Part shown: in pieces, positions 17,301-44,975 of the stretch | How the letters are laid out: every line of letters starts with the position of its first letter | How positions within the stretch are numbered: position 1 is the first letter of the stretch | IMG/VR virus record: IMGVR_UViG_3300006916_000075 | Location: 1 to 48,358 of that record | DNA from: a virus | Reading direction: 5' to 3' (one strand) | Length of the DNA stretch: 48,358 bases | Program-made: the position numbers and the translations under genes | The notes under the pieces: model-generated | Told to the model about the DNA's origin: nothing | Database searches by the model: none | Seen by the model: the letters and a program-made list of their open reading frames with translations, nothing else

Positions 17301-17308
17301 GATAAATA
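17301..17308 (+). promoter_or_regulatory. Late promoter for gp25/gp6/giant gene
   Basis: GATAAATA, then five bases (AAGGT), then ATG at 17314. By the T4 rule transcription begins on the A of this ATG. It is the only late element seen upstream of the 27-kb structural block that starts with gp25. Confidence 0.7.
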
Positions 17309-17313
17309 AAGGT

Positions 17314-17685
17314 ATGGCGACAACATTCAGAGGATTTAATACTGTAGACAATATTAGAGCACCTTACTCATTGTATGATGTTGAGTTAGTTAAGAGGGAT
17401 CTCCTTAATGAGTTTTATACTAGGCAGGGAGAAAGATTAATGAGACCAAACTTTGGTAGCATTATATGGGACCTTTTAATGGAGCCCGAAGACGAAGCAA
17501 CTGAAGAAGACATCAAAGCAGACATTGAAAGAATAGTTGCAAAGGATCCTAGAGTGGAGTTAAAAAGCACAGTATTATATATTTCAGACCATACAATAAG
17601 GGCAGAAGTAATTTTAAACTATGTGCAAACTAATACAGACGACATGTTGTTTTTAGAGTTTGTAAATAATAGTGGTATCGAGTAA
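17314..17685 (+). CDS. 25: Baseplate wedge protein gp25
   Basis: 123 residues, close to T4 gp25 (132). The GERLMRPNFGSIIWDLLMEP segment (about residues 43-62) is the gp25 signature, a lysozyme-unrelated sheath-initiator fold shared with contractile injection systems. It forms the baseplate core bundle with gp6 and gp53. The frame could start at 17293, but that ATG lies before the late promoter element, has no ribosome site, and known marine gp25 proteins start MATT-like, so 17314 is preferred. The AAGG next to the ATG is too close to act as a normal ribosome site. Confidence 0.85.
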   Translation: MATTFRGFNTVDNIRAPYSLYDVELVKRDLLNEFYTRQGERLMRPNFGSIIWDLLMEPEDEATEEDIKADIERIVAKDPRVELKSTVLYISDHTIRAEVILNYVQTNTDDMLFLEFVNNSGIE

Positions 17686-17687
17686 AA

Positions 17688-20600
17688 ATGGCATATTCAG
17701 AAAGACAAAATAATTTATTTGCCGCGGAAGATTGGAAAGTTGCATATAAAGTATTCTCTAATATAGATTTTACTTCATATGATTTTAATACTTTACGCCT
17801 GTCAATGGTAAGTTATATCAAACAAAATTATCCAGAAAATTTTAATGACTATATAGAAAGTTCAGAGTTTATTGCAATTATAGAATTGTTGGCTTTTGTG
17901 GCTCAATCATTAGCATTTAGAATGGACCTTAACAGTAGAGAAAACTTTTTAGAAACTGCTGAAAGAAGAGATTCAGTATTTAAACTAGCAAGGATGTTAG
18001 GGTATTCACCAAGAAGAAGAATACCAGCGTCTGGACTCGCAAAAATAGTTGCCATTAGTACATCAGAACCTATTACAGATAGCCTAGGCAATAATTTGGC
18101 AGGTAAACCTATTTTTTGGGCAGACGCCAATAATGCTGATGCTTATGAGCAATTTATTACAGTATTAAATAGTGCTTTGTCTACTTCTAATAGATTTACT
18201 TCACCTGCAAAAGAAGGCACAGTTGGTGGTATTAAAACTGAAGTATATAGGATATTAAAAAGTTTAAACAGTCCTTTAGCATTTGGCTTTACTTCACAAG
18301 TAGCAGGTTCAAGCAGAAATTTTGAAATTGTAGATGCTGATTTTTACGATAACCAATACTTTTATGAAAGGCATCCTGACCCCATAAACAGTTTTGGATT
18401 AATTTACAGAAACGATGGTAAAGGTCAAAACAGTATAAATTCTGGATTTTTTATGATGTTTAAACAGGGTCAACTTAAATCCAAAGACTTTAATTTTACA
18501 GCACCATTACCAAACAGAAGTCAGGATGTAGGTGTAGTTGGCATCAACCAAACAGATTTATGGGTGCAAGAAATAAGAACATCAGGTTCTATTATAAACA
18601 AATGGTCTAGAATTCAAAATACAGTAGGACAAACAATAAATTTTAATGCTCAACAGCAAAACACTAGAAATTTATATGCGGCAGAAACATTACCTAACGA
18701 TGATGTTAGGTTAAAATTTACTGACGGTAATTTTGGTAAAATACCCACAGGTGTTTATAGAGTATGGTACAGAACTAGCGACGGTGAAAACTATGCTATT
18801 AGACCAGCAGACATGGATAGAAGAACTGTAACAATTCCTTATGAAAACAAAGAAGGAAAAATTTACAATTTAACAGTCACATTTAGTTTACAATCAACTG
18901 TAAACAATGGACTTCCTACTGAAACTGTAGGAAACATAAAAAGAAATGCTTCGCAAATCTATTATACACAAAACAGAATGGTTAGTGCTCAGGACTATAA
19001 TGTTTTTCCATTTAGTAAAAGTAGTAACATTCAAAAGTTAAAAGCAGTTAATAAAACACATGCAGGTCATAGCAGATACATTGACATCAATGACCCTACT
19101 GGAACTGTTCAAAACATTGAATTATATGGAGACGATGGATATCTTTATAAAGAATACAGTACAACCTCCTCAACAACTGTAGTAAGCCCTAATAATACTG
19201 CTAATAATTTTGTGGTAAATAAACTGCCTGAATTGCTTAAAAATCAGGCATTAAATAATTTCTTATATGAAACTGCTAGAAAAAATTGGGTTGATTTTAA
19301 AAACAATTCCTTTGATTTAGAAAGTTTGGATATTACATGGAGGCCACTACCAGTAACTAATGAAGGTGCCACAGGTTATATGACTGAAACAACCAGTGTA
19401 ACATCGTCTGGTTCAGAGTCTGTTTTAACAAATAACTATCTAACATTTAAACAAATTCAGGAAAACAACTTTATTAAATGGGTAAATCCAGACAATGTTG
19501 CTGACTATAAATGGGTAAGAATTACCAGAGAAGAAAATGCTGGATTACTTACAAGTGGTTTAAGTACAGCGGTAGGCCCATGGACCTTAAGTGCAAGTAT
19601 TCCTGCAGGATGGAAAGCACATGAAGTAATTGTGTCATTAAGAAAAGAACTTCAGGGAACTGAAATTATAAGTGTTCAATCACAAATAGAAAACAAGAAA
19701 ACATTTGGATTAGGATATTCTCCTGCTTATGTAGATACTAATTTATCTGCAGATACTTGGTATATAATAGAAAACGAAAATTTAGATAAAACATCAGACT
19801 ATGATGCAGTTGATACAGGAAAAACCACAGGTAATCCTATTGACAGTAGTTGGTTATTATTATTTACATTTGTGCCTATTAATGAAAGTTCTTACAAATA
19901 TGAAATAACCCTAAGAGGTGAAAATTATATTCTTCAAAGTAATAGCGATATAAAATTTTACAATATTAATAATGTAAAAGTTGTTGATACAAATAATAAA
20001 TCCAATATGGATAAAATTAGTATCACAACACTTAATAATAAACCAGGAAGTACTGAAAGATTTAGGTGGTATAATAGTAATCCTAGTTTTGATAGTTTGA
20101 ATGATTCTTGGTATAGTGAAGAAACTGGAGCATTTACAACACCAACTGCTAGTTCATATAACATAGGACTACCATTAAGGTCTAGAGATACCAAATGGTT
20201 TGATGTTGGATTCCAATGGGAAAGTAATTTTGGTATAATGAGAGTACCAACAAACAATACTCCAACAGATATTATAAACTTAGATACTTTTGTAAACGAT
20301 ACTAAAATTACACTAAACACATATTATGATGATGGTACTGCGGCCGCCCTTACAACTAATGTAACCATTGCAAATAACATAGGTACAGTATCTAAAATAC
20401 CTGGCAATATTACGATACCATTTACAAATACAACATTTGGTTATAATATTATTAACAGTGAAGGTAACGTAATGTATAAACAATACAATACGGGTACAGC
20501 AACAGTAGAAATTTTCCATGCCAACAGCAGTGGTGTTACACACAGTTTTGGAGTAGGCGGAGCAAGTCATAATGCAAGTTCACTTGGAAGATTAATTTTA

Positions 20601-22169
20601 GCAAACGTGGACGTTAATACACAATCAGGTAATTTAGTATATACCGAACTACAAAATCAAAATTATCTAAATGCTACAGACAGTAGCGGAAAAACTTTTG
20701 TAGATAAAATAGTAGTAAGTTATGAAAATTATAAAGACAGATTAGATAGAAATATTGATTGGCATATTATAGGTACATATAAAGAACCAGACGGGTTTAC
20801 TGACAATTCAAAGGTACTTGTAGCACCATACGATACTGATAACGACTTAGTACCAGATAGACCGTTACAATTTTCTGAATTCGTAGACTCTAACGATTTA
20901 GTATTTTTTGAAAAATACGATGATTTTGATGGCTATACTTACGAAAGATCTTCTAAAGGTGAAATATTAGACTACAGAGGAGAAACTGTTTTAATTAGAG
21001 AAGATAATAATAATACTTTAAGCCCAGATACATACGATAATCCTCAATCATTTACAAATACATCCTGGATAGTAGTTGACAATTATGATATGGTTACCTC
21101 TTACCTGCAAAATAATACAACAAAATTATCAGGTGTTAAGGTATATGTTGTTAATGAAAACAAAGTATATATAATGACGCCTAATAGCACAAACGTAAGC
21201 CAAATTAGGCCAGTACTAACTGACAAATATTCTGTAAAACAAGGCAGAGGTGAATCACAGAATACACTTTTAACTGAACAAACACCAATGGTATTTAAAT
21301 GGAATCATGTGGCTGATAAAGATGTCAGAATAGACCCAAGTATTAGCAATGTTATAGAAATGACTGTTTTAACAAAAACATATAATACAGAAATTAACAA
21401 ATATTTAAATGTTCCAGGTACTCCATATCCTACACCCCCTTCAGCATATGAATTAAGTGTACAGTTTAGTGAACTCAACGAGTTTAAAAGTGCAAGTGAC
21501 AGTTTAATATTTAAAAGTGCAAAATTTAAAAAATTATTTGGTGCAGACGCTGATCCAGAATTACAAGCAAAATTTAGAGTGGTAAAACTTTCAGAAAATG
21601 TGAGCGATAACGAAATTAAATCTAAAATTATTTCAGCATTTAACACTTATTTTGACCCTTCAAATTGGGATTTCGGAGAAACTTTTTACTTCACAGAATT
21701 AAGCACATACGTTCATCAACAATTAAAAGGAATGGTTGGTAGTATTGTGATCTTGCCTAAACAGGGAAACAGTAAATTTGGAGATTTATTTAGTGTAAAA
21801 CCAGAATCAAATGAATTATTTTTAAGTACAGCAAAAGTATCAGATATAGAAATAATTAGTAAATTAACAAGATCAACAATTAATATAGATAATGCTTCTA
21901 ATGTTGTTATAGCCAATGATGCAATAGAATCCGCAGGGCCTTATGCAATTAACGGATATTATCCTTTATATGCAGACGAAGTTCTTGCAAATGCGGCTGG
22001 CGACGGCACTAGTCATATACACAGATTTTATGGACAAGTATTTTACATGCCTAATGGCCTAGTTATGAACAAAACAATGTTCCATGGTAATTACACAGGA
22101 ACAATAGGTAATGACAGCAGTTCATCAAATTCAGGTTCAACTGGTTCAGGTTCTAGTGGTGGATATTAA
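17688..22169 (+). CDS. 6: Baseplate wedge protein gp6, enlarged
   Basis: 1493 residues against 660 in T4. The first 490 residues are gp6-like: a conserved N-terminus with FIAIIELLAFVAQSLAFRMD and SRENFLETAERRDSVFKLAR, and later RMVSAQDYNVFPF and HSRYIDINDPTGT. The C-terminal 270 residues are also typical, with FKKLFGADADPELQAKFRVV, WDFGETFYFTELSTYVHQQL and GNSKFGDLFSV. Between them lie about 730 extra residues of beta-rich, Asn/Thr-rich sequence, and the C-terminus ends in a short Ser/Gly tail. In T4, gp6 dimers clip neighbouring wedges together into the ring. The insert probably decorates or thickens the baseplate. Its stop overlaps the ATG of the giant gene. Confidence 0.85.
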   Translation: MAYSERQNNLFAAEDWKVAYKVFSNIDFTSYDFNTLRLSMVSYIKQNYPENFNDYIESSEFIAIIELLAFVAQSLAFRMDLNSRENFLETAERRDSVFKLARMLGYSPRRRIPASGLAKIVAISTSEPITDSLGNNLAGKPIFWADANNADAYEQFITVLNSALSTSNRFTSPAKEGTVGGIKTEVYRILKSLNSPLAFGFTSQVAGSSRNFEIVDADFYDNQYFYERHPDPINSFGLIYRNDGKGQNSINSGFFMMFKQGQLKSKDFNFTAPLPNRSQDVGVVGINQTDLWVQEIRTSGSIINKWSRIQNTVGQTINFNAQQQNTRNLYAAETLPNDDVRLKFTDGNFGKIPTGVYRVWYRTSDGENYAIRPADMDRRTVTIPYENKEGKIYNLTVTFSLQSTVNNGLPTETVGNIKRNASQIYYTQNRMVSAQDYNVFPFSKSSNIQKLKAVNKTHAGHSRYIDINDPTGTVQNIELYGDDGYLYKEYSTTSSTTVVSPNNTANNFVVNKLPELLKNQALNNFLYETARKNWVDFKNNSFDLESLDITWRPLPVTNEGATGYMTETTSVTSSGSESVLTNNYLTFKQIQENNFIKWVNPDNVADYKWVRITREENAGLLTSGLSTAVGPWTLSASIPAGWKAHEVIVSLRKELQGTEIISVQSQIENKKTFGLGYSPAYVDTNLSADTWYIIENENLDKTSDYDAVDTGKTTGNPIDSSWLLLFTFVPINESSYKYEITLRGENYILQSNSDIKFYNINNVKVVDTNNKSNMDKISITTLNNKPGSTERFRWYNSNPSFDSLNDSWYSEETGAFTTPTASSYNIGLPLRSRDTKWFDVGFQWESNFGIMRVPTNNTPTDIINLDTFVNDTKITLNTYYDDGTAAALTTNVTIANNIGTVSKIPGNITIPFTNTTFGYNIINSEGNVMYKQYNTGTATVEIFHANSSGVTHSFGVGGASHNASSLGRLILANVDVNTQSGNLVYTELQNQNYLNATDSSGKTFVDKIVVSYENYKDRLDRNIDWHIIGTYKEPDGFTDNSKVLVAPYDTDNDLVPDRPLQFSEFVDSNDLVFFEKYDDFDGYTYERSSKGEILDYRGETVLIREDNNNTLSPDTYDNPQSFTNTSWIVVDNYDMVTSYLQNNTTKLSGVKVYVVNENKVYIMTPNSTNVSQIRPVLTDKYSVKQGRGESQNTLLTEQTPMVFKWNHVADKDVRIDPSISNVIEMTVLTKTYNTEINKYLNVPGTPYPTPPSAYELSVQFSELNEFKSASDSLIFKSAKFKKLFGADADPELQAKFRVVKLSENVSDNEIKSKIISAFNTYFDPSNWDFGETFYFTELSTYVHQQLKGMVGSIVILPKQGNSKFGDLFSVKPESNELFLSTAKVSDIEIISKLTRSTINIDNASNVVIANDAIESAGPYAINGYYPLYADEVLANAAGDGTSHIHRFYGQVFYMPNGLVMNKTMFHGNYTGTIGNDSSSSNSGSTGSGSSGGY

Positions 22170-25100
22170 TGGCGGATAAACTTTACAATAAATTACCCAA
22201 CGTATTGCAAACTACGGCTGTAAAGAATTTCTTTGACAGTACAGTAGAACAACTTTTTAGTCCAGCAAATGTAGAAGTCATAAATGGATTTATTGGTAAG
22301 CAAGACAGTGACCAATTTAATGTACTAGGCAGTTTTTTACGAGAAACTTCAGCAAACAGACATCATTATTCTTTAACTCCTGCGGTGAATACTTTAAATT
22401 TAGAAACAGGAGAAAGTGAGAACTTTGTTTTTTATGATGAGGTAGTTGACAAATTAAAAGTTTATGGTGTAGACACAAAAGATCATAACAGGATTTTTAG
22501 TACAAATTATACATCATTTTTACCTCCAATAGATATTGACAAATTTATAAATTATCAGGAATACTTTTGGAGCAATAATGATTTAAGAGCAATTACAGTT
22601 ACAGGCTCATTGTCTAATCCAATTGATATAGATACTGATATTATAGGTAAAAAATCATTCACATCCGCAAATAATGTAACATTTAAAAATGGAATGGTTG
22701 TTAATTTTTCAGGTGAATTTGTAATACCATCAAATAGATCAGGAATAGACTATTATATTGAAGGTGTTGGTGACTCCATAAGACTTATACCTAGAAACCA
22801 AAACGTAGCAACAGGTTATTCTACAGCAGTTTTAAACACATGGGATAATACTGTATTTACAGAATTAGATACTAATGTTAAACATACAGCAGGAAATATT
22901 ACTGGTGTAATAATTGATAATCCTGGTATAGGTTATTTAGAACCAGTTATATCTTTTACTGGAGCAAATACAACATTAGCAACAGCAACAGCAAATTCTA
23001 ATGTAAGTGGAAGTATTACTGACGTAACTGTTACAGCAAATGGAACAGGTTATAGTGCGCCTATTGGATTAACAATTACAGGTACAGAAGTCTTTACAAC
23101 ACTTAATGTTGCAAATACTATGGTGTCATTTTATAATGCTGACAAAAGTACTAGAGAATATTCTTATAATAAATTAGCACTTGATGACAGCAGTAATATT
23201 TTTATAGGTCAAAATGTTTTAATAAGTGGCACAGAAAATGCTACTGTTGAAAGTTTAACAAATACATCTATTGTATCTATTGAAAATATTTCTAATAGTT
23301 TTGATACAAGCAGAACACCTGGAATATATACTACATCTGGTACCACTAGTGGTAGTGGTATAAATCAAAACTTTAGAGTTACAGTTTTTGATGAAACAGA
23401 AATACAAACTATTGTAAACATTGACGACCAAAAAGCAGTATGGCAAGGTAATGCTACAATATCAACTGCTAGAACAAATATAACAAAAACAGGATTAAGT
23501 GCCACAGGTGGTACAGGTACTGGTGCAACATTTGATATTGAGTATGACGGAAGCCAAAATGTTACTGTTACTATTAATAATGCTGGTAGTGGCTATCGCA
23601 GAGCAGAACTGCTTACAATAGCAGGTAATGATATAGATGGTGTAAGTGGTCCTGATTTAACTTTTAATGTTTTAGAAATAGAAAAACCTCAAGGCATATT
23701 TGAACTAGGAAATATCACACTCAGTAATGTGTCAGTTTCAGATACATCATTTTTAGTGGACATGTTAGACGTCCCCACAGCAGGAAACATAGCAACATCA
23801 GGTTCAGGTAATGATGCAATATTTAACGTTAATATAAGTTCAGGTACTGTTAGTATTGATATTAATGATGGAGGTATAGACTTTTCAGAAGGAGACACAT
23901 TTACAATTTATGGAAATCTTTTTGGAAGTGCAAACTTAGACACAATTACATTCACAATAGATAATGTTCTCGAGCCAGGCGACAGTTTTATAGAATTTTT
24001 AAACGGTGGTACAGGACATGCTGTAGGTGATACTATCACAATAACAGATGCTGAGTTAGGTTCAGGTGGGGGTTCAGATTTAACATTTGATGTAGCCAGA
24101 GAGGGAGATATTTTAAAAATATCTCATGATGTATTATTAAACCAAGGTTCAAATTTAAGTGTAATTTTTAACGGTACAGGATTTGTGGGTACTGTGAGAA
24201 CAGACATGTACTCATTTACATCCAATGCAAGTGGTACATTTACTACTGGTATTTCAGATATGGCACTTAGTGGAGTTGACCCAAACACTGGAGACTTTTA
24301 TTTAGGTGGTGCTCCTGATAGTTCTACTGACTATGGTTGGGATATAGACAATGATGGCGATGGAAATGGAGATGCTGTTTGGGGAGGTAGAACTTCACAG
24401 GGAAATCCAGACTATAATGTTTTAAAAAGAGGATCATCTAATAGAAATGTTTGGAGTAGGGTAAACTTTTGGCATCATAAACAAAACTACATTGATGCTG
24501 GTATGGATATACCCGGTAAAGAATATAGAGCAAAAAGACCAATTATAGAATTTGACCATGACATAGAATTATACAACCATGGCAAAAATTTTATTGGTGA
24601 GGTTTTGGTAGTTGAACCAGTAAGGAAAAAATCAGAAATAGAAGGACAGGCAGTTAGTATACTAATTGATGGATCACCTTTACCAGTTGGCGGAACTATA
24701 ATTTTTCCAAATGAATCAGAAAGCATTTCTAAATACATTTACAAAGTAGGCCATTCAAATGCAACCATATCATTATCAAGAGTTGCAAATTTAAATGAAA
24801 ATCCTACAGGTGCAGAAGATGGTGATGCAAATTTTGTTGCATTAGAGTTTACAGAAGGTGCAGTAGTTAATATTAAAGCAGGTGAACAAAATATAGGTTC
24901 AGAATGGCACTGGAAGAATAATATTTTACAAAAGGCACAATCTAAATTAAACCTACACCAAGCACCATTGTTTAATATCTATAATGATGAGGGATCATTT
25001 TTAGGGGACACTTCAATATATCCTAATACAGATTTTGTTGGAAATAAGATATTTAATTATAAGATAGGTACAGGTACTAAAGATTCTATACTTAATTTTC

Positions 25101-28100
25101 CTTTATCATACAAGCAATTTTATAAGTCAAGTGAAATACAATTTGAAAACTTTTTAGAAAATTATACGGTAAAATATTCGAAAGACAATGCAAGTACTTC
25201 TATACCTGGATATTTTTATTATAAAAAAGATAAACTTGTGCCTGAATTTCATAATACCTGGAAAGAAGGCAATAACAAATCAAAACAATCAGTAAAAACA
25301 TTTTATTATATTAATAGATTTGATTTAGACAATAAGTCTCTAGTTTATTTTATAGGCTGTGAGCCTGAAGAAAATTCAAATTTTTCAAGTGGTTATAATA
25401 TTGTTGTTAAAGTAAATGACAAAATTGTCACAAATTATGTTTATACAGAAAAAGGTTTAATAAAATTTGATAGTTTTGATTTTAACGATAAAGATGTGAT
25501 TGAAATAATAGCTCACACTAAAAACGGGTTAATTTCAGAACGAAGTATTAGTAAATATGATGTACCAATAACATGGGATAGAAACATACAAAAACTAGAT
25601 ATAACAAATATATCTAAACCAGAATATTTAGAGCATTTTTCTAATTTAATAAAAAATACATCGGGTATTACGGGTGATGCTTTAGGTAATAATAATTTTA
25701 AAGATTTAAAAGCCAACCCTTCAGATGCAAAAGATATTGTAAAAGCAGATGAGGATTTAATTCTAGGAACATTCCTATTAGACGAAGCACCGCACAATTT
25801 AGTAGATGCTATAAATTTTTGCCATAAAGAATATGTTGGTTATAAGAATAGACTTGTTTTTGAAATAGAAAAATATTTAAACTCTACAGATGCAGATAAT
25901 TACACCAATGAATTTATTTTAGACAATGTTTTACGGAATGTAATTTCCTTTAGTGTGGGTAAAGATGTTTTTCAAAGAACATATACTATACCGTTTGGTG
26001 ATAATTATATTACTGAAGAAAAAATTATAAACACATTAAATGATACTAGTTATACTCCTGCAAAATATATAGATCTTAGCAAAATTGAAAATAGTATTCT
26101 TGTTTACAAAGTAAGAGGAACACAGACTGATTTATTAGAAATAGATAAAGACTATACCTTAACATCAACGACAACAAGCAATACATTTACACCAACATCT
26201 CATTTAGATTTAGCCTTAGCAGACAAACTTGTATTTAAAATATATGATAAAGAACGTGATAGTGCAGAATGTCCTCCAACACCAAGTGTTTTAGGTTTAT
26301 ATCCCCTTACTCAACCTGTAATAGAAAGTGACACTAGTTTCCAAGAAGCAGTTTCAGTAATTATAGGTCATGATGGAAGTAAAATACCAACAAAAGGCAC
26401 AAGAGAAGACCAAATACTATTAGAATTTGAAATCAGAATTTATAATAGTGCTAAAAAAGAATTTAGAGATGCAAATAGTTTACCAGAATTAAGTGTATTT
26501 AATGTAAGATCAGGTAAATTTAGAAATACTAATTTTTCTAATGATGAATGGTATGATTTAATGCGTACCAATTTTAACACATGGAATTTAAAAAACAAAA
26601 CTGATTTTGTAACAAATGAATTTTATGATAGCAATAACGAGTGGACTTGGAACTATAGAGGAGCATCTTCTGTACCAGGACACTGGAGAGGCTGGTATGA
26701 ATACTATTATGACACAGTAAGACCTAATACACATCCTTGGGAAATGTTAGGATTTACAGAAAAACCAACATGGTGGGATAGCCAATATATCACAACTACA
26801 TATACAGATTACAGTAGTAATAATACACCTATGTGGCAAGATTTAGAACTTGGATTAATTAGACAGGGCTCTAGAGAAAATTTAAGTGGTAATGAATACA
26901 AAGATTTAGAAAATAACCCATGTGCTAGACCTGGTTTGAAAGATGTTTTACCAGTAGATAGTAGTGGAAATCTAAAATCTCCTTATGATATAGATAGCAC
27001 AGGTTCAACCACTATAACAAAAACATATAATGAAACAGTTTCTAACACCAGTTTAGATTACAAAACTACCAGTTACTTATTGACTGACGGATTAAGTGTT
27101 TATTTTGATAATGCTAATGTATATGTAAGCAGTAAAAATATTCCAAACTATAATACAGATAAAATTGGAACACTTGCTGGAGAACAGCCTATAAAACCAA
27201 TTACATCTGCATACAGTATACCACAAGTAAATTTAAATTCAATAACTTTGTCAAATACCAGTATGCAAGATGGTGCAATTGGTGTTTTAGTAAATGGACA
27301 GCCTATTTATAACCCTTCTAATGCAACAACATTTGAAGATGAGGGTAACTGGACATATAATGCAGGATTTTTAGAAAAAAATGGAAGAGATGAAGGAATA
27401 ATTGCTCATACTGACAATAACGGGCTTGTTCATACACATGTTCCTACTGAAGAAATGAGTAATACAGAAGTCTGGGGTAATAGCACTACACACTCTGGAA
27501 TTGTTGGCTGGGCATTTGATGGATTACCAATTTATGGCCCATATGGATACAATTCTTATCATGCAAATGGTATTGTAGACGATAACAGCATAACAAATGT
27601 AAAAAGTAGTTTTGAATTAAAGCCTGGTTCAAGAAGTAGCCACCCAGGTGGTGCTCACACAGGCTTATTCCTTGAAGATTATCAATATAGTGCAAGTTTA
27701 GCCTTACAAAACGGTACAGCAGGTAAATTTAACACAAGATATGGTGTTACCCCTGAATCTTCAAGCACACCTATACGTTTTTATGTGGTAACAATAGATG
27801 ATGATGGTGCTCCTATGTTCCCTTATGCTATTGGAGGTGGCACAAAAACCGATAATACATATAATAGTGAGTTTTTTGCTACTCCACAAGACCTAAGTAA
27901 CAATAGAAAAGGTATAGCACCAACACCTTCCAGTGTAACCACTGCAATTAGAAGTACTTATACAGAAACACAAACACAAGATAATACTCAAAATGCAGAA
28001 TGGAGAATTGGCGATGGTGCTCCGGTAGAAAATGCATGGAAATATAGTTCATCATATCCTTTTGCTGTTATTCGTTCTTTACTTTTAGCAAAACCTGGAA

Positions 28101-37100: not shown

Positions 37101-40100
37101 TAGGACAATTTGATCCTGTAACACTGGATAATTTAGGCTCACCAGGTGGGTATGACCCAATTAACAACAAATTACTAGGTGGTGCAGGTGCCAAAATATT
37201 CCTTACAGCAAGTGAAATACCAGATTGCTCACAACCAGGTAGTGCCAAAAGAGCATTAGGTTTACCTGATGTTATTGCTGATATAGACGCAGTGGCAGAT
37301 TTAGGTTCAGCAATACAGGGTGCTATAGGTGATGCAGGGTACGGTCCAGACGACTTTAACATTGATATTACACCTATCAACGATTTAATTTCTCAAATAG
37401 ATATATCTAGTCCAATATTTGATGGATTAGAAATTGGTGAAACTACACCTGGTGTATTGGATTCCTTAGGGTTACCACCAGGCGATTATAATATTGCTTC
37501 GCTTTGTGTACATGCAATAGTAGAAACAAAATTAAAAGATGAAAATCCAGTTGTTGCAAATAAAATGAATCAACTAGTTGATAATTTAGGCCTAGGTTTA
37601 GATACCTCAGGCCCAATAGATGTTATAAAATTACTTTGTGTAGACACTATTGGTGATGATGATGACGATAATGGACAAGACGGTATTAGTATATTTGGTG
37701 ACGGAAAGGTAGAGTTTTTAAGAGATTTATATCAGTATGAATTAAGAAGCATTACAGGAGACCCTGTAACACTATTAAGTTCTGGTGTTTCACAAGAAGC
37801 AGATATACTTTATTTAGAAAGTCAAAGATATAGTGGTAACACACAAATAAGTTCTGCTAATACAAATTATCCTGAAATTTCTGGAAATATTAATTCCTAT
37901 GCAAATATATGGATCGACAATTATAATGATACTGGTAAATGGGCATATTTAGAAAACGGTGACGTTATAAGAGAACAACAAGATTTAACTGACACCAGAT
38001 TTATTAACAAAATTATTACATATAATAATGAAACCGGTATAAAACAAAACGATATCCATCTTTATGATCCATTCAAAGGTATTTTACCTGGATTTATAGA
38101 AAATGAAATACATTTTATAGGTGAAAACGATCCTGTAGTTTATGATAGTGCAAGAAGTAATTTTTGTGATCCTAAAATGGTTGGTAAAGTTTGGTGGGAT
38201 ACTAGTACAGTAAGATATAACTGGTACGAACAAGGAACATCTAGAGAAAGATGGCTAAATTGGGGTAGCACATTCCCAGGAAGTAATATATCAGTTTATG
38301 AATGGGTACGCTCTAATCAGCCACCTACTTCATGGGCATTAACAGGAACACCAAGATCTCAATACATAGTAAAATCAGAGCTTAATCCAGTTTCAAATAA
38401 ATTACAGGATTATTATTACTTCTGGGTAAGGAATACAAAAGCATTAATTCCTTTTGCTGTACAGCAACACGGAAGAGAGTTAAGTACATTTGACATAGCA
38501 AAATATCTAGCAAATCCTATTGGATATGGATTAAACTTAATAAGTTTTATAGATAATAAATCTTTTGTAATGAGTAATATTGCAAATATTTTAAGCGATG
38601 ACAATGATAATTTACAAATTAATTTTAGTAGAAATCAAAATCCAAATGGTAAAAAACATGACTCATGGTTACTAGCCAGAAAAGGTGATAATAATAGTAA
38701 TATACCTGAAGACTTATCACAAAAACTTATAGATAGTTTATGTGGTTATGATAAAACAGGAAAAGAAGTACCTGATAAAAATCTTAGTGAAGTACAAAAA
38801 TTTGGTTCAGCATTTAGGCCAAGACAAACATTCTTTAAAGATGTAAAAGGTGCTAGAAAAGTTGCATATGATTTTATAAACACTTTATTTAAATCATTAA
38901 AAATGAACACTGAATTCGAAGATTGGGATAGTGATTTAGTAACCTCAAGAACTTATTTTAAAACAGAAAATTGGTATGGTGTTAAATCTGTAGATAATGT
39001 AACTAAATTAATTAACTATTATGATGATTCATACAAACCTGTTTATAGAGTCAATAGTTTTACCGAATTAAATTCACTTAAAAATATTAGAGACGGTGTT
39101 GTAGTACAGATTAAAGGCAGTGACTCAGATAGAAGTCAACTGTATCAATACGATGGAAATTTAAGAAAATATAATCTTATCAGTATAGAAAATGAGATAA
39201 TTCAATTAAACGAAACATTTTATTCCGATAACACTAACACAATGTTAGACAGAGAATTAAGAAGTATTTTAAACACAATTAAAGATAATAAATTTAATAA
39301 TGCATCTTACTGGAATATATTCTTCTTTACATTATTAGAATATGCTTATGCAGAACAAAGCGGACTTAGTTGGGCATTTAAAACAAGTTATGTATTTGTG
39401 GAAAAAGAAGAAACAGATCTTATTAAATTTGCTGGATTTAAACCAGACAATTTTGATAAAGTTTTAGAATACATGAACGAATTTAAACCTTATTCAAGTA
39501 AAATTAGAGAGTATAAAGATGGTAAGCAACCACCATTTGAATACATTAAAGATCAAATGATAAGTGATTTTGATAAACCACCTTATGCCGATTTTGCACA
39601 AGGTACTATTAGAATACTTGATGAAAATGTAGAATCTGATAGCCAGTTTATGGCAAATACAGCCGAATATGTTAAGTATCATAGCATATCAAACAAAAGT
39701 CTATCACCTATTAGGCAAACAAAAACAAGCCTTGTATTTGACAGAACAAACTGGCAATCAACACAATTCCAGTGGAACCCAAGTTCAGAAAGTGCTAACA
39801 GTAGTATAGCAACAAATATAGCATGGATTAAATCAGCAAGTAATTCAGATGTAAGTGGTAATGCTAATGTAAGATCTATAGACAGGATTATAAAATTTGA
39901 TACTGATGTTAATACTAAATTTACAAATGAAATGGAAATTTATCTAACAGGGCAAGGATATGTTGCAGGTTCTAGTGCAAATACTACTTTAATAAGTAAT
40001 GCTACAATATTGCTAAATGCCATTGAGGCAGGATCATTAGACGGTACTTTAAATAGTGCTAGAAATAAAGTTGGTGGAAACTTTATAGGTGATATTTTAG

Positions 40101-40906
40101 ACGCAAATGTGTTTAGTAAAGTTGTTGAAGGATATGATCCGTCACTGGATTATCAGGAATTCTTCGGATATGATTCAGAAGCATTTGATACCACAGCAAG
40201 TGATATAAGTATAGAAGTAATTAACTATTCAGGTACATTTGATAGTTCATTAGTAAACTTCAGAAGAAACGATATCACTTATGAAGGTTTCGATGGTGTA
40301 TCATTTAGCAGAATGTTATATGGAGAAGATAGACCAGAAGAATTAATACAAATAGATCCACAAGAAAACTTTGTACTTACTGTTACAACAAGCCCTTATG
40401 CTAATGCTGATTCAAGTAGTAATATTGTGGTAGCAAATGCACTGCCTGTTACTTATAGAGTACATAGAGCAATGGATGGCGAAAGTCACTTCCTTAGAGT
40501 ACGATCAAGTACTACATTAAGTGCTAATCTGTTATTAAGCGACAGAAGTATTACAGTAGCAAATGCTAGTGTGCTACCAAGACCAACATTAGGAACACCT
40601 GGTGTTATGTGGATCGAGTCAGAAAGAATTACATATAAAGAAAGAGATACTGTTAATAATATTATAAGTGGTATTACAAGAGGAACAAAAGGTACTACTG
40701 CTGAAAACTGGTATGTAACTGATGAAGCAGGAGCAAATGTTATATTAAATGTATATGATGGTTCCAGAGACCAAGAATTTACAGACTTGGTAGGTGCTCC
40801 AGAGTCTAATACATTCTTAGACACAGGTGCAGTAAGTTTAGCAGATTACGATAGTGCTAATGCAAGTAGTGTAACAAGCATAATGAAGTTTTTACATGAC
40901 AAATAA
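22169..40906 (+). CDS. Giant virion/baseplate structural protein (gp7 position)
   Basis: One uninterrupted frame of 6245 residues, about 39% of the window. It starts at an ATG overlapping the gp6 stop. The N-terminus (LPNVLQTTAVKNFFDSTVEQ) and the middle segment THPWEMLGF are familiar from large unnamed structural proteins beside gp6 in marine T4-like phages. Visible parts: beta-rich repeats with GxGY turns (from about residues 250, 290, 470, 2600, 4630); a YHYH domain (about 1690-1890); a Cys/Gly-rich segment near 3740-3950; a Ser/Gly/Asn linker (about 4150-4230); an acidic segment (about 5160-5190); and a conserved helical part near 5700-5800. No catalytic motif was recognised. Inference: a wedge protein replacing T4 gp7 (1032 residues), perhaps fused with adhesin modules. 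Confidence 0.8.
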   Translation: MADKLYNKLPNVLQTTAVKNFFDSTVEQLFSPANVEVINGFIGKQDSDQFNVLGSFLRETSANRHHYSLTPAVNTLNLETGESENFVFYDEVVDKLKVYGVDTKDHNRIFSTNYTSFLPPIDIDKFINYQEYFWSNNDLRAITVTGSLSNPIDIDTDIIGKKSFTSANNVTFKNGMVVNFSGEFVIPSNRSGIDYYIEGVGDSIRLIPRNQNVATGYSTAVLNTWDNTVFTELDTNVKHTAGNITGVIIDNPGIGYLEPVISFTGANTTLATATANSNVSGSITDVTVTANGTGYSAPIGLTITGTEVFTTLNVANTMVSFYNADKSTREYSYNKLALDDSSNIFIGQNVLISGTENATVESLTNTSIVSIENISNSFDTSRTPGIYTTSGTTSGSGINQNFRVTVFDETEIQTIVNIDDQKAVWQGNATISTARTNITKTGLSATGGTGTGATFDIEYDGSQNVTVTINNAGSGYRRAELLTIAGNDIDGVSGPDLTFNVLEIEKPQGIFELGNITLSNVSVSDTSFLVDMLDVPTAGNIATSGSGNDAIFNVNISSGTVSIDINDGGIDFSEGDTFTIYGNLFGSANLDTITFTIDNVLEPGDSFIEFLNGGTGHAVGDTITITDAELGSGGGSDLTFDVAREGDILKISHDVLLNQGSNLSVIFNGTGFVGTVRTDMYSFTSNASGTFTTGISDMALSGVDPNTGDFYLGGAPDSSTDYGWDIDNDGDGNGDAVWGGRTSQGNPDYNVLKRGSSNRNVWSRVNFWHHKQNYIDAGMDIPGKEYRAKRPIIEFDHDIELYNHGKNFIGEVLVVEPVRKKSEIEGQAVSILIDGSPLPVGGTIIFPNESESISKYIYKVGHSNATISLSRVANLNENPTGAEDGDANFVALEFTEGAVVNIKAGEQNIGSEWHWKNNILQKAQSKLNLHQAPLFNIYNDEGSFLGDTSIYPNTDFVGNKIFNYKIGTGTKDSILNFPLSYKQFYKSSEIQFENFLENYTVKYSKDNASTSIPGYFYYKKDKLVPEFHNTWKEGNNKSKQSVKTFYYINRFDLDNKSLVYFIGCEPEENSNFSSGYNIVVKVNDKIVTNYVYTEKGLIKFDSFDFNDKDVIEIIAHTKNGLISERSISKYDVPITWDRNIQKLDITNISKPEYLEHFSNLIKNTSGITGDALGNNNFKDLKANPSDAKDIVKADEDLILGTFLLDEAPHNLVDAINFCHKEYVGYKNRLVFEIEKYLNSTDADNYTNEFILDNVLRNVISFSVGKDVFQRTYTIPFGDNYITEEKIINTLNDTSYTPAKYIDLSKIENSILVYKVRGTQTDLLEIDKDYTLTSTTTSNTFTPTSHLDLALADKLVFKIYDKERDSAECPPTPSVLGLYPLTQPVIESDTSFQEAVSVIIGHDGSKIPTKGTREDQILLEFEIRIYNSAKKEFRDANSLPELSVFNVRSGKFRNTNFSNDEWYDLMRTNFNTWNLKNKTDFVTNEFYDSNNEWTWNYRGASSVPGHWRGWYEYYYDTVRPNTHPWEMLGFTEKPTWWDSQYITTTYTDYSSNNTPMWQDLELGLIRQGSRENLSGNEYKDLENNPCARPGLKDVLPVDSSGNLKSPYDIDSTGSTTITKTYNETVSNTSLDYKTTSYLLTDGLSVYFDNANVYVSSKNIPNYNTDKIGTLAGEQPIKPITSAYSIPQVNLNSITLSNTSMQDGAIGVLVNGQPIYNPSNATTFEDEGNWTYNAGFLEKNGRDEGIIAHTDNNGLVHTHVPTEEMSNTEVWGNSTTHSGIVGWAFDGLPIYGPYGYNSYHANGIVDDNSITNVKSSFELKPGSRSSHPGGAHTGLFLEDYQYSASLALQNGTAGKFNTRYGVTPESSSTPIRFYVVTIDDDGAPMFPYAIGGGTKTDNTYNSEFFATPQDLSNNRKGIAPTPSSVTTAIRSTYTETQTQDNTQNAEWRIGDGAPVENAWKYSSSYPFAVIRSLLLAKPGKFARAFADPIALVKTTVGPKSFRVSKTTRKTWNYKNDDDFRIHGTYDSENQFVSNIGYSQFIKSWLKFQDYDITNNFKEKLKTLNTKISHRMAGFVDSDTATIKTDQYSTTGNASSIIIPVENRKVTIHDSGNKSRNNYTGVIIEKTINGYKIKGFDTSLSYFNILESDKQKESQSITRGGKPVSYINWASNKEYPLGTIVNYLGSYYMSRMNVPSNSTFISDQWDRLPSLPQQGGAKGIIYKESTGIIKRIDYNKEFTSVQEVFDLLISLGRYQESIGFNFGEYDDSIGNVKNWNYAAEQFLFWVTGGWEVGNTLELSPGAGSIEFLKQNEAVSEIKRVYRDQFSILDQNGAVIDPKECEIIRDANRLQIKPPVGSQIYSITLYTKQLEHVLSIDNVSDFNDTYYNDLLNQRIKRLNFKGKRTLGWDGRFSSEGFIIDEGELQPNLDNITSTMANYHTIGFVPVDKQLYNASRNLIGFENKSYLTELGITDDDQVEFYKGAIQSKGTLNSISKILNSNSIVQGNVNIYDEWALKTGSFGDLDNNQSIELKLSKQDIVQDPQLFQLEFPEDITGLVKEIVITERNASYYETPLIELGAPTNSPKKQATAVATLSSDGTINSISITEPGTGYVEANTTLTVLTSNLNVTSNTYTFNYVSAVSESLFPQSNISGIANITIADHFASNTSAQTIDLSSVTEVANVVTAINTDSVTNANIVATAIETFDSNANSSSFVLQITGSDFTLGGSGLANLNLTAQRYQPRQRFGFTIANNTTVDNIIVSVDDTLVPRIDGNVTYWEYDAGDRFQTTTSTLTTSGPYDVNIASLTGMINSSSIIANENTALVEGIYSYVDVYVNGTKLENTVDQSQYSVPNNTTVRILDVTNLPEGNIAPNSNIYIVEKATIDFTDDYQGDIPTSNLSIKVQSNEGFSVQIASKRIFDITPDIKNDEIITLDIDDKNRFLKKPNGIRTNEIWPLVSNVDYTGVKDIEFTQIPNAGYVDRKHVNYQSFGVIDMPDLFGADRVYKPSKNELIHIAKSENNDWNVYKLREPEDLGVTFIEQDGTPGAYLYTTADLFDYVDSNQLQQNDLSRFLDYTLVIKRARTSQDVVLWTNQEVVDKKSALIRDFGAITMLQANIDTIGVGASSTFYHDFSNISPAQRSKIVGDVVQADANGTVIMTANGGSTIQNGDQIFLIDPAHTLVTHSATSLLHSDTANATSGSANAIYDSKITITASNPANVTNIVGNITMIDLTFSGSNVGDFTPSEVTSLRYTASNVDYVAGTFDIHTDDSTFQSYFGNVANTTITSVTNSLTSVQFTVHEHSNVHLQTVTASNVNLNNGTFTFNQSNVTANASNMVGRLLTKCELTVPDHGLYIGEIVKVLSNNIRGYYQVESATQNSFVINAPYHANLDVTGQVLTRGLHIKTSEPHNLPVGYNGKRVMVHQAQNPYYNQTYNVGYVKSNTEIIIEDVFAWNATEDDVSPSFNAVVDGSVVNSNSIKLSSPPIEIGRKFIVTGSGITERVRVTDISKMNVTGVIKLDKKVSVADGVTLTFEKECVLTTLDHDVIKLNNTSFRIDDTTTPQGIVESFNNTQAIKAGLINKKGNTFGLGIPMLKKPYLPDGTPYRAYAGKSPYVRNEELDENLSAGMDKMGHIKFKNPANAGYKPFNKNPVQSYIDPNSPLSGAYGSGVKTPYNNYLATPQYFGTGGSITGGPDVNVGNTYADQGPISNGVVDVPVWTPKINQNSSLNDIGPGAPVFTGQALQGAPEKRCGPDACASTNRAGRGIPHSIIRGNGPLTWNSQNCAIESTGTITVSGTVSGTGHGKRKWGGDYSGYYSPTGQTGGGAIDFKKRAAAGAVTWSDNGSTQSFRVPFKVTQSGKIYVHGYQSGKSGRDTTTISVSVVSGNATIVGASTIKCKYMGPGYTSPNGAGAVIQVDMQADSEILITGTCKGGSNHWHCCEMHVSGSKSALNRTSERIVKNTQTNTGGQTGAQSGNGEYVIFDYSDKQGANKTEEFHFESPGSGTATILFNNYSGSDGIQVLAGPQKGNEINLLAESTWGNIRRLTNNERQELRNKYVVSSTGASNSNYANRNFDDHRSNNSSPKSNLSNQLIGVTDAGAMDFNIPAGGDYRYIKVIIPKASYIFDHILKLPNATPPPNNPATDPNPTVPCGQQTQMPTGNNSSSGGSASSGPGANTSGTGSSSSNNNTGSSTSGTNPGGSGSTNNTNRNASTGGGSGTNSSSGGTNNTKSIGSGNAGSYQYTTNYGNAVKAAVAKYHQIVTNKGSLPTPKWPYINIAQTSGFYRAPMTGLSFIPSIYRKSVKMVANTGYGSPISLGSGRYVNNQVQKISGGFVVPLAQRLTKNIPLKARPLRNLDAAELPYYNVLDANKSAFEQGGMFYNWNPKKIRGDIKLDDGTFLDITGATLTGADVGLGLGNLLYYSDPYNGASIGGDDPVDTMPVSPPEELAEGPVVLEDDDVNWNPNFQITFQPKFRGASAGPKIVIPLYKPVPGHTIDTSNLSGLNPEDTININGRTIGPFKGTSPEAILKAINCVDATGFEAKPLSGDLIRISSCSNVPLTVKEGCSGGLYKEVLDFHINRAFVAQEVSNTSTVSATTNILDSSGSLVDTAVSYAHLDVTGGVNGYSNVSASQGFVTSSNVVQTGGSGYSIGDRLRVVGGTPIKDPFTGVKEICIKNPGAGYSLPENIVVTIGDGSTPGRNALVKNVVFDANNGIKKVNLYSGGEEFDVNRPPRVTITDTGSIPQPSDYSNALVRGDFVKYMIFEISAIDSVGSVANSIPVGNTIIDINQEGVTVTDNANKIDGINARLKVIVTENDAGVKSATVEVRKGGRHWQVGQTFSVRPDVLGGTFSDSPLTFQVGNVNPLLLRYAQLNKNAAGVDTLGDALREGILTFKSGFLQPQQAELEAVLDNKPGGRVPRVAKFEVTSIDYYGTITSVKILDRGIYKVFPSDLTNGLPLEYDHVLLGDEAGWNNAGTEYVGGSGLGQFDPVTLDNLGSPGGYDPINNKLLGGAGAKIFLTASEIPDCSQPGSAKRALGLPDVIADIDAVADLGSAIQGAIGDAGYGPDDFNIDITPINDLISQIDISSPIFDGLEIGETTPGVLDSLGLPPGDYNIASLCVHAIVETKLKDENPVVANKMNQLVDNLGLGLDTSGPIDVIKLLCVDTIGDDDDDNGQDGISIFGDGKVEFLRDLYQYELRSITGDPVTLLSSGVSQEADILYLESQRYSGNTQISSANTNYPEISGNINSYANIWIDNYNDTGKWAYLENGDVIREQQDLTDTRFINKIITYNNETGIKQNDIHLYDPFKGILPGFIENEIHFIGENDPVVYDSARSNFCDPKMVGKVWWDTSTVRYNWYEQGTSRERWLNWGSTFPGSNISVYEWVRSNQPPTSWALTGTPRSQYIVKSELNPVSNKLQDYYYFWVRNTKALIPFAVQQHGRELSTFDIAKYLANPIGYGLNLISFIDNKSFVMSNIANILSDDNDNLQINFSRNQNPNGKKHDSWLLARKGDNNSNIPEDLSQKLIDSLCGYDKTGKEVPDKNLSEVQKFGSAFRPRQTFFKDVKGARKVAYDFINTLFKSLKMNTEFEDWDSDLVTSRTYFKTENWYGVKSVDNVTKLINYYDDSYKPVYRVNSFTELNSLKNIRDGVVVQIKGSDSDRSQLYQYDGNLRKYNLISIENEIIQLNETFYSDNTNTMLDRELRSILNTIKDNKFNNASYWNIFFFTLLEYAYAEQSGLSWAFKTSYVFVEKEETDLIKFAGFKPDNFDKVLEYMNEFKPYSSKIREYKDGKQPPFEYIKDQMISDFDKPPYADFAQGTIRILDENVESDSQFMANTAEYVKYHSISNKSLSPIRQTKTSLVFDRTNWQSTQFQWNPSSESANSSIATNIAWIKSASNSDVSGNANVRSIDRIIKFDTDVNTKFTNEMEIYLTGQGYVAGSSANTTLISNATILLNAIEAGSLDGTLNSARNKVGGNFIGDILDANVFSKVVEGYDPSLDYQEFFGYDSEAFDTTASDISIEVINYSGTFDSSLVNFRRNDITYEGFDGVSFSRMLYGEDRPEELIQIDPQENFVLTVTTSPYANADSSSNIVVANALPVTYRVHRAMDGESHFLRVRSSTTLSANLLLSDRSITVANASVLPRPTLGTPGVMWIESERITYKERDTVNNIISGITRGTKGTTAENWYVTDEAGANVILNVYDGSRDQEFTDLVGAPESNTFLDTGAVSLADYDSANASSVTSIMKFLHDK
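27235..27840 (+). other. YHYH domain within the giant protein
   Basis: Residues about 1690-1890 of the giant protein contain GWAFDGLPIYGPYGY, then GAHTGLFLEDYQYS, then a Pro-rich step and FYVVTIDDDGAPMFPYAIGG. This order of motifs, including the Gly-Pro-Tyr and Tyr/His signatures, matches the YHYH domain family of unknown function found in many marine bacterial secreted proteins. The domain is complete as far as can be judged. Confidence 0.7.
34620..34858 (+). repeat. Ser/Gly/Asn low-complexity linker in the giant protein
   Basis: About 80 residues (roughly 4150-4230) made almost only of Ser, Gly, Asn and Thr, encoded by irregular AGC/AGT/TCA/GGA codons with no exact nucleotide repeat. It probably separates two folded parts of the giant protein. 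Confidence 0.75.
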
Positions 40907-40929
40907 TAAAACTAGTTATTTGCAAAAGT

Positions 40930-40937
40930 GATAAATA
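40930..40937 (+). promoter_or_regulatory. Late promoter before the 40943 gene
   Basis: GATAAATA, five bases (GTTAG), then ATG at 40943. Same spacing as at gp25 and (with CATAAATA) at 44616, predicting a leaderless mRNA. Confidence 0.7.
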
Positions 40938-40942
40938 GTTAG

Positions 40943-41587
40943 ATGAGCAATGATATGAACCAAAAAACAGAAAAAGAAAACGACATGACTGAAAGCCAAA
41001 CAATTGATAATCTTGGTTTAAACGTCAGTGGTCATATTGTGATAAAAGATTTAGAAACAGGTGAAGAGCTTGTAAATAAAAGAAATGCTATACACTATGG
41101 AAACATGGCGTATATTGTAGCACAGGCCTTAAATGCCTTTAATACAGAAAATGCCTTTATAGACAGAATTGCATTTGGTAATGGTGCTACTAGTGTTGAT
41201 ACAGCAGGAAAAATTCTATATAAAACACCCAGAGTTTCAGAAAGTTATGAAAACTCAGCAGGTTTATATAGTAGAACTTTTGATAAAAGATTAAATCCAG
41301 GCACAACAGATACGTCTATAACAACAGTTGTAGGTTCCTCACACACAGATATTAAGGTTACTTGTACTTTAGGGTATAATGAACCAAACGACGCAGACTT
41401 ATTTGATACAGCAACAAACAACGAAGGTGACTATGTATTTGATGAATTAGGTTTATTTACATACCCAACAGATGGTAGTAGTATAGATACTAGCACAATG
41501 CTTACTCATGTAGTATTTCACCCTGTACAAAAAAGTCAAAACAGAAAAATTGAAATAGTTTATACTGTAAGAGTTCAGTTAAGTTAG
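40943..41587 (+). CDS. Baseplate/tail structural protein, unassigned
   Basis: 214 residues. After a polar N-terminal tail of about 28 residues comes LNVSGHIVIKDLETGEELVN, then RNAIHYGNMAYIVAQAL and FIDRIAFGNGATSVDTAGKI. I recognise this pattern from unnamed structural proteins between the baseplate and fibre genes of marine T4-like phages. The rest is beta-rich, ending in a strand (IEIVYTVRVQLS). It may connect fibres to the baseplate, as gp8/gp9/gp10 do in T4, but sequence similarity to those is not evident. The start at 40943 is supported by promoter spacing; ATG at 40985 is an alternative. Confidence 0.55.
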   Translation: MSNDMNQKTEKENDMTESQTIDNLGLNVSGHIVIKDLETGEELVNKRNAIHYGNMAYIVAQALNAFNTENAFIDRIAFGNGATSVDTAGKILYKTPRVSESYENSAGLYSRTFDKRLNPGTTDTSITTVVGSSHTDIKVTCTLGYNEPNDADLFDTATNNEGDYVFDELGLFTYPTDGSSIDTSTMLTHVVFHPVQKSQNRKIEIVYTVRVQLS

Positions 41588-41597
41588 AGGATAAAAG

Positions 41598-43448: not shown

Positions 43449-43464
43449 TATAATACTGCAAAAA

Positions 43465-43472
43465 GATAAATA
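43465..43472 (+). promoter_or_regulatory. Late promoter for the 43504 gene
   Basis: GATAAATA; predicted start near 43478, then a 26-base leader with an AGGAG ribosome site. Unlike at 17314, 40943 and 44616, the leader is normal, which shows that both layouts exist in this genome. Confidence 0.7.
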
Positions 43473-43503
43473 CAGGTATAGAATACTTATTTAGGAGAAC
43501 ATA

Positions 43504-44550
43504 ATGGCATCAGGTTCAACAGTAACAATTAGTGGTGGTACTAATATGACACAAGTTGTAGCAGGAGATATTATTGATGACTTGGATTTCAATAATGCTA
43601 GAACAAACGTAAACACTCTATTAGGCACAGCCGCAGATGTAACATTTGGAAATGGCACAATGCCTGCCACAACAGGTATTTACGGTTACGGCCAGGGCGG
43701 AGCAGGTGTAAATGCCGCTTCAGCAGGTGGTTTAGTATATGCCGATAATGCCACAGGCGGATTTAAAAGATTACAAGACGATGTACAGGCCCTTTGTGCA
43801 TTTTTAGGACAATCAGTTAGAACAAACGTTGGATCAGACGTAGGAACATCAACAGTTATTGATGACACAACTTGGTCTAACCTCATGCTTAATATTAAAG
43901 ATTGCTGGGACAACAGATGGTCTCCAGCAGGTAGAACAAGTTCAACAGGCGATAGTGCTTCAAGAACATCAGCATGGACAACAAGTTTAGTTGAAGAAAC
44001 AACATTTACATGGGCTAACGAAGGCTTGTTAAGAGCTTTCTTTAATGGTGGTGGAAGAATTGGCATGAGTGCTAGTAGATCTGGTGGTAGTTCAACTACA
44101 CAGAACACTGACTGGACAAACTTATTAAGTGCAATGGGTGATGTTTATATTGATTATCAAACAGCAGGTGGTAGTTCAGGAACAAATGCTGGTATAGGTG
44201 CTTATGAATTAGGTACAGGTTACCGATTAATTTGGACTAAATTAGGTTCAGGTGCTTATGCTTCAAACTATTTTAAAATGTATGGTAAAGTAAATTCAAC
44301 TTCTAACCCTACAGTTATTACACTTAAAGCAGAATTAAGTGATCCTTATACAGCGGCCGCGGCCGCGGCGGCAGATGGTGCCGTTGGTCCTGACGGTGTG
44401 CCAAGTACTGGTGATGATGCGGCAGGATATACAGATAGTATTGACGGAACATTAACAATTAATGGAAGACGTCATATACCAAATGCATCTGGTTCAGGAT
44501 TTAGTTTTACAAATCCAACTACAAGTTCAGGTGCTATAAGCGGATCATAA
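43504..44550 (+). CDS. Fibre-associated structural protein
   Basis: 348 residues. The segment TFTWANEGLLRAFFNGGGRI then GMSASRSGGSSTTQNTDWTN is a pattern I recognise from virion proteins near fibre genes of marine myophages. The N-terminal 90 residues are Gly/Thr-rich. Near residue 285 an Ala run of seven codons (44354-44374) alternates GCG and GCC, giving 21 G+C-only or nearly G+C-only bases in an A+T-rich gene. It has its own late promoter and ribosome site, and a strong terminator follows, so it is likely a separately controlled and abundant product. Function in adhesion is inferred only from position. Confidence 0.6.
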   Translation: MASGSTVTISGGTNMTQVVAGDIIDDLDFNNARTNVNTLLGTAADVTFGNGTMPATTGIYGYGQGGAGVNAASAGGLVYADNATGGFKRLQDDVQALCAFLGQSVRTNVGSDVGTSTVIDDTTWSNLMLNIKDCWDNRWSPAGRTSSTGDSASRTSAWTTSLVEETTFTWANEGLLRAFFNGGGRIGMSASRSGGSSTTQNTDWTNLLSAMGDVYIDYQTAGGSSGTNAGIGAYELGTGYRLIWTKLGSGAYASNYFKMYGKVNSTSNPTVITLKAELSDPYTAAAAAAADGAVGPDGVPSTGDDAAGYTDSIDGTLTINGRRHIPNASGSGFSFTNPTTSSGAISGS

Positions 44551-44566
44551 TAAAAATAACATTTTT

Positions 44567-44596
44567 AAAAGCCAGTTCACAGTAACTGGCTTTTTT
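44567..44596 (+). terminator. Rho-independent terminator
   Basis: AAAAGCCAGTT, a six-base loop, then AACTGGCTTTTTT: an 11-bp stem with a run of six T. It ends the tail-fibre block just before the late promoter at 44603. Confidence 0.9.
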
Positions 44597-44602
44597 ATGG
44601 CT

Positions 44603-44610
44603 CATAAATA
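44603..44610 (+). promoter_or_regulatory. Late promoter (CATAAATA) for the 44616 operon
   Basis: CATAAATA, five bases (TTGAT), then ATG 44616. Directly downstream of a terminator, which supports a new transcript. One base from the common GATAAATA. Confidence 0.65.
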
Positions 44611-44615
44611 TTGAT

Positions 44616-44975
44616 ATGAGTACACGTTTGACAAAAGCATTGGAATTTGCTAATTATCGTACCACGTTAAATAATCAGCAGGCTCAATTAAAAGCAAAAA
44701 CTCAAAGTCTTTTGAGTTACAGTATTAATGGCGGAACATTTACCATTGATATTCCATTAATAACATTCTGTAAACAACTGTTAGATGAAGGTCAAAAACA
44801 GGTTGTACTCTTGGATATATACAACAATCCCATTCAGATTGAAATAGAAAGTTTTTACGAAGAAATACAAAGTAGATATTTTGAAGTAACAAACGATTAT
44901 TATGCTGAATATGAAAAATTGCGAAAATCAAGGAAAGTACACAAAGTATTAGACCTAAATGAAGACGGAACTTAA
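44616..44975 (+). CDS. Conserved small phage protein, unknown function
   Basis: 119 residues, mostly helical, with a beta segment NGGTFTIDIPLITF and VVLLDIYNNPIQIEI in the middle and a charged C-terminal helix (YYAEYEKLRKSRKVHKVLDL). I recognise the general pattern from unnamed proteins beside fibre genes in marine T4-like phages. No enzyme motif is visible. It overlaps the start of the phosphomannomutase-like gene by 17 bases, so the two are probably co-translated. The predicted mRNA begins at its own ATG. Confidence 0.65.
   Translation: MSTRLTKALEFANYRTTLNNQQAQLKAKTQSLLSYSINGGTFTIDIPLITFCKQLLDEGQKQVVLLDIYNNPIQIEIESFYEEIQSRYFEVTNDYYAEYEKLRKSRKVHKVLDLNEDGT

Follow-up and report, generated by a model that had tools for sequence, protein, structure and literature searches.

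Late promoter elements five bases before the start codon suggest a class of leaderless late mRNAs in a T4-like virus and its relatives

Introduction

Can a T4-type late promoter lie so close to a gene that its transcript begins on the start codon itself? The question is raised by a virus sequence of 48,358 nucleotides from IMG/VR (IMGVR_UViG_3300006916_000075), analysed here over its whole length and referred to as the window, in which a preliminary description had pointed to three late genes with a promoter element immediately before the ATG. T4 late transcription is a textbook system, and its late genes have leaders and ribosome sites. The T4 late TATA box begins at -13, about one turn before the transcription start (PMC2988020). 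From the T4 rule, the preliminary description had placed the +1 base of all three genes on the A of the start codon, and it had proposed two classes of late mRNA, one of them leaderless.

Materials and methods

Spacing is given as the number of bases between the late element and the ATG. In the IMG/VR survey, the distance from ATAAATA to the ATG of an ORF of at least 60 codons was recorded in 201 related loci centred on the three query genes. Because these loci were centred on the query genes, whole genomes were tested next. Expected counts at spacing 5 came from permuted motifs and amounted to 0.1–0.5 per genome. Start codons were assigned by rule and checked by N-terminal conservation in the three gene families and, for several isolate genes, by comparison with their annotation. 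In a motif-free scan, every hexamer at every offset before ATG was scored for position specificity.

Results

Gene content of the window

The window encodes gp25, a gp6-like wedge protein and gp46/gp47-like SbcC/SbcD proteins, and a single ORF of 6245 codons (22169–40906), flanked by the gp6-like and 40943 genes, takes up 39% of its length. The ORF at 3597–4019, which matches phrog_447 (labelled NAD synthetase) as well as two homing endonuclease families, is possibly a mobile endonuclease gene. Close relatives of the window are IMG/VR contigs. Among annotated isolates, jumbo phages of the 121Q, RaK2, GAP32 and PA5oct groups come nearest when gp25 and the 40943 protein are compared, with less than 60% identity. 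The 44616 gene has more than 200 matches in IMG/VR and no match among isolates.

Three late elements at the same distance from ATG

Direct inspection of the window confirmed that exactly five bases separate NATAAATA from the ATG at 17314, 40943 and 44616 (Table 1), namely AAGGT, GTTAG and TTGAT, respectively. Counting both strands, the window has 11 copies of ATAAATA. Three of them precede an ORF of 50 aa or more at spacing 5, where permuted motifs would give 0.04 (Poisson p about 1e-5). A usable Shine-Dalgarno sequence is absent at all three sites, as had been claimed, the sole candidate being an AAGG one base from the ATG at 17314. The normal leaders and AGGAG-type sites previously described for genes 2495, 8891 and 43504 were also recovered. 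Gene 2495 has AGGAG and a GATAAATA element at 2431, 56 bases upstream, together with a one-mismatch copy at spacing 42.

Table 1. Late promoter elements, the genes behind them and related features of the window
Feature	Coordinates	Strand	Remarks
Late sigma factor, gp55-like, phrog_12791	7888..8748	-	E 8e-97; presumed reader of the late element
Leadered late promoter GATAAATA of gene 8891	8865..8872	+	Spacing 18, AGGAG
gp25 late promoter element GATAAATA	17301..17308	+	Predicted -13 to -6; spacing 5 kept in relatives
gp25 baseplate wedge gene	17314..17685	+	Predicted +1 = A17314, leaderless
Late promoter element GATAAATA of the 40943 gene	40930..40937	+	Spacing 5
phrog_11259 gene	40943..41587	+	Predicted leaderless
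Leadered late promoter GATAAATA of gene 43504	43465..43472	+	Spacing 31, AGGAG
Terminator-like hairpin AAAAGCCAGTTCACAGTAACTGGCTTTTTT	44567..44596	+	From sequence and folding; ends a few bases before the 44603 element
Late promoter element CATAAATA of the 44616 gene	44603..44610	+	Spacing 5
Short late gene, 119 aa, without family match	44616..44975	+	Predicted leaderless

An esterase-like gene (16630–17238, -) diverges from gp25 and lies only 75 bases upstream, so that no co-directional gene directly precedes gp25. The hairpin adjoins the 44603 element, so that an upstream leader would have little space; its 3' arm and T-tract are kept ahead of the element in many relatives. Thus, leaders derived from upstream mRNAs are unlikely for gp25 and the 44616 gene. 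The 40943 gene starts 37 bases past a co-directional gene ending at 40906, and readthrough from this gene could be another route to its expression, which counts against a leaderless reading.

Conservation in the three gene families

Among the relatives of gp25, the element stands at spacing 5 in all 16 distinct sequences, and the spacer itself varies in sequence. Of 62 distinct relatives in the 40943 family, 40 have spacing 5, with spacings 6 and 8 found in seven each. Twelve relatives of the 44616 gene carry the exact element at spacing 5 and many more have [GT]TAAATA at the same spacing; members of a distant clade (44–54% identity) have GGAGG-type ribosome sites instead, often with the element at 18–19.

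Mechanical gene calling opens the gp25 ORF at the ATG at 17293, but the conserved N-termini (MATTFRGF...) open at 17314 in all relatives, which makes 17314 the better start. Starts at 17293 or 17299 were rejected because the conserved N-terminus sets in at 17314 and some relatives lack the upstream ATG. With two in-frame ATGs at 17293–17313, 5' of the conserved start and overlapping the promoter, this is a region where an ORF caller would start gp25 too early.

Spacing across relatives and whole genomes

The spacing check proposed in the preliminary description was carried out on relatives and whole genomes, and the distribution is not flat. Across the 201 IMG/VR loci, 83 sites lie at spacing 5 and 10 at spacing 6, with almost none at 0–4 and 9–13. 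The distribution is bimodal, with a spike at 5 followed by a broad class from about 17 upwards, whereas twenty permuted motifs gave a flat curve over the same loci.

Whole genomes gave the same picture, and over all the data the leadered class, which has Shine-Dalgarno sites, sets in at about 14–17. A 250-kb relative (IMGVR 3300020360_000085, hereafter G001) has 26 sites at spacing 5 and none at 4 or 6, an excess over permuted motifs with p 1e-37. Spacing 5 occurs 17 times and spacing 6 seven times in a 340-kb relative (3300024228_000554, G002), and two further relatives have 13 (G004) and 12 (G006) sites at spacing 5 plus a smaller peak at 8 (eight sites in G004). Among cultured phages, the SAR11 phages HTVC008M and Mosig have nine and six such sites, Stenotrophomonas phage CM1 has seven, and PA5oct shows a weak signal of four. 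Reversed-pattern controls agree with these counts. With ORFs of 50 aa or more counted, T4, 121Q and Syn9 have no site at spacing 5, and no clear excess was found in one-pattern counts for RaK2, GAP32, KVP40, P-SSM2, Cr30, phiM12 and Phosso. The arrangement recurs in several relatives and isolates, which are mostly marine, but a general trait of T4-like phages is rejected by its absence from T4, Syn9 and 121Q. A simple tie to alphaproteobacterial hosts found no support either: the Caulobacter phage Cr30 and the Sinorhizobium phages phiM12 and Phosso gave no hits, whereas the Stenotrophomonas phage did.

In the motif-free scan, TAAATA at spacing 5 was the top hexamer in G001, G002 and HTVC008M, ranking above the Shine-Dalgarno hexamers, which rank first in T4. 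It was not the top hexamer in Mosig and CM1, where it is too rare to rank.

Sequence character and the predicted transcription start

Genes with spacing 5 differ from leadered genes in their ribosome sites. GGAG or GAGG is found in 2 of 90 spacing-5 genes and 69 of 186 leadered genes (p 5e-12), and with a wider Shine-Dalgarno definition the counts are 11 of 90 and 147 of 186. The sequences thus support the proposed two classes of late mRNA, with a spacing-5 class lacking Shine-Dalgarno sites beside a leadered one. When ATG, GTG, TTG and CTG are all allowed, the starts at spacing 5 are nearly always ATG (26/29 in G001, 17/17 in G002, 9/9 in HTVC008M). The base at -1 is T or C in 88 of the 90 genes, and G at -13 is enriched in both classes. 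Neither a -35 element nor any conserved position 5' of -13 was found in 83 sites, with at most 0.15 bits anywhere from -50 to -14. Downstream A-richness was discarded as a leaderless-specific signal, as it does not differ between spacing-5 and leadered genes (0.45 vs. 0.44).

The leadered promoters offer a separate view of the +1 position. Leadered promoters of G001, G002 and HTVC008M have A as the sixth base after the element in 64% of cases and T just before it in 55%, and in 121Q, PA5oct, Syn9 and T4 this sixth base is A or G in 79%. This supports the sixth base as the likely +1 expected from the T4 rule, which in spacing-5 genes would be the A of the ATG, in line with the original proposal. 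Annotated CDS starts coincide with the predicted +1 at sites in HTVC008M, Mosig and RAS14, including gp25 (HTVC008M), the DNA end protector (HTVC008M and Mosig), the tail tube cap and others; one CM1 site matches a start annotated in the near-identical relative RAS14.

Genes in the two classes

In G001, genes predicted to be leaderless are, among others, those for gp25, the terminase large subunit, a gp13-like neck protein, a ferredoxin-like protein and a PAAR protein, and genes with leaders include those for the tail sheath and portal. A Shine-Dalgarno sequence precedes the major capsid gene, and no element lies within 250 bases upstream of it in any of five genomes. Possibly, abundant products are leadered and scarcer ones leaderless. 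In G001, the esterase-like gene opposite gp25 also has ATAAATA-N5-ATG, so that two predicted leaderless promoters (128678, -, and 128738, +) diverge from a short intergenic region; the copy of this gene in the window (17238, -) lacks an exact element.

Discussion

Promoter or translation signal

Very probably, these sites are T4-type late promoters read by a gp55-like sigma factor, with transcription starting on the A of the AUG and yielding leaderless late mRNAs. The sigma factor would read a late element placed just before the start codon, and the phage would make two kinds of late mRNA, one with a leader and Shine-Dalgarno sequence (sheath, portal and similar genes) and one with none or 1–3 bases before the AUG (gp25, terminase large subunit, gp13-like neck protein and others). 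The low counts at spacings 6 and 8 suggest that leaders of 1–3 bases occur beside the true leaderless ones. As reviewed for other leaderless mRNAs (PMC9031893), 70S ribosomes would bind the 5'-terminal AUG directly. What the sequences show is the exact spacing and its conservation, the lack of Shine-Dalgarno sites, a promoter-like sequence context and the +1 position suggested by the leadered class; the 5' ends, the dependence on gp55 and this mode of ribosome entry are what we infer.

The element is AU-rich and adjoins the AUG, and could instead be a translation signal within a longer mRNA, for example one bound by ribosomal protein S1 or by a regulator resembling RegA, with transcription starting further upstream. 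The co-directional gene only 37 bases before the 40943 gene would fit such an arrangement, but the same heptamer, again preceded by G, forms the late promoters of leadered genes in these genomes, the spacing never departs from an exact value with a pyrimidine at -1 and A at +1 in the spacing-5 class, and the 44603 element and gp25 are preceded by a terminator-like hairpin and a divergent neighbour, respectively. We consider a translation signal very improbable. Transcription might also begin one or a few bases away from the assumed position, giving leaders of 1–5 bases that would be functionally near-leaderless, but not strictly so. Spacings 6 and 8 do occur (seven at 6 in G002, eight at 8 in G004, seven of each in the 40943 family), and T4 late starts are given only as about one turn downstream (PMC2988020); however, the counts rise sharply at exactly 5, in agreement with the A-rich +1 of the leadered promoters, and we consider a general offset very improbable. 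Three sites alone in an AT-rich window could seem accidental or an artefact of annotation. The permuted motifs (p 1e-5 in the window to 1e-37 in G001), the reversed-pattern control, the conservation in 16 gp25 relatives and the motif-free scan refute this, leaving practically no chance that it is correct.

Relation to known systems

With leaderless transcription from late promoters as the preferred reading, the system resembles the late promoters of T4 (TATAAATA, gp55/gp33/gp45) and of cyanophages (NATAAATA) in its element, the lack of a -35 box, the predicted distance to +1 and a gp55-like sigma factor (PMC2988020, PMC2984593), but the elements of T4, Syn9 and 121Q are nearly always at least 10 bases from the ATG and have leaders. 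The nearest cellular parallel is the -10 motif adjoining ORFs in Deinococcus-Thermus, where leaderless genes likewise have a -10 element a few bases before ATG, a fixed spacing and no ribosome site (PMC12340547). There, the motif is a host sigma-70-type TANNNT, whereas here it is the element of a phage late sigma factor in a viral developmental programme with a leadered class alongside. The lambda cI mRNA also opens at its own AUG and is translated without a leader (PMC9031893), but cI is a single regulatory gene, and here 6–26 late genes per genome, structural genes included, are predicted to be leaderless. Gene 25 of T4 also has non-standard translation initiation, with a split ribosome site in which a hairpin brings a distant Shine-Dalgarno sequence close (PMC3014915); none is present at gp25 here.

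T4 late promoters and leaderless mRNAs are each known already, and what is new, as far as we found, is their union as a regular class of late genes. No earlier report of such a class was found in the freely available literature searched, which is weak evidence of novelty; in the Melnitz paper, 'leaderless' stands only inside the title of a cited gene-finder reference.

Phage translation factors

HTVC008M, Mosig and PA5oct have a bS21 gene, as do five of six large marine relatives; the gene is absent from T4, 121Q, RaK2, GAP32, KVP40, Syn9 and P-SSM2. It lies directly 3' of a phage IF3-like gene in IMG/VR relatives (G004 275072–275656, G006 181826–182360; loci L371, L373, L374); an IF3-like gene also occurs in 121Q and RaK2, which lack bS21. 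The pair is a possible translation-initiation module of the phage. Most phages with the leaderless class have bS21, and few without the class do. CM1 and the possibly incomplete G001 are exceptions, with a leaderless class and no bS21, as is Phosso, with bS21 and no leaderless class. Since the genomes are few and related, the association is a lead only. We consider it unlikely that translation factors of phage origin retune the ribosome for the leaderless late mRNAs. If they did, the leaderless class would be a translational switch favouring late phage messages over those of the host.

Implications

The class would be found both in marine phages that are abundant and in isolates kept in culture (HTVC008M, Mosig, CM1/RAS14), which makes it directly testable. 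ATAAATA-N5-ATG would mark the likely true start of a gene and aid start-codon annotation. If the leaderless reading is true, essential structural proteins of these phages would be made by a second mode of translation initiation, from a whole class of late genes to which gp25 and the terminase belong.
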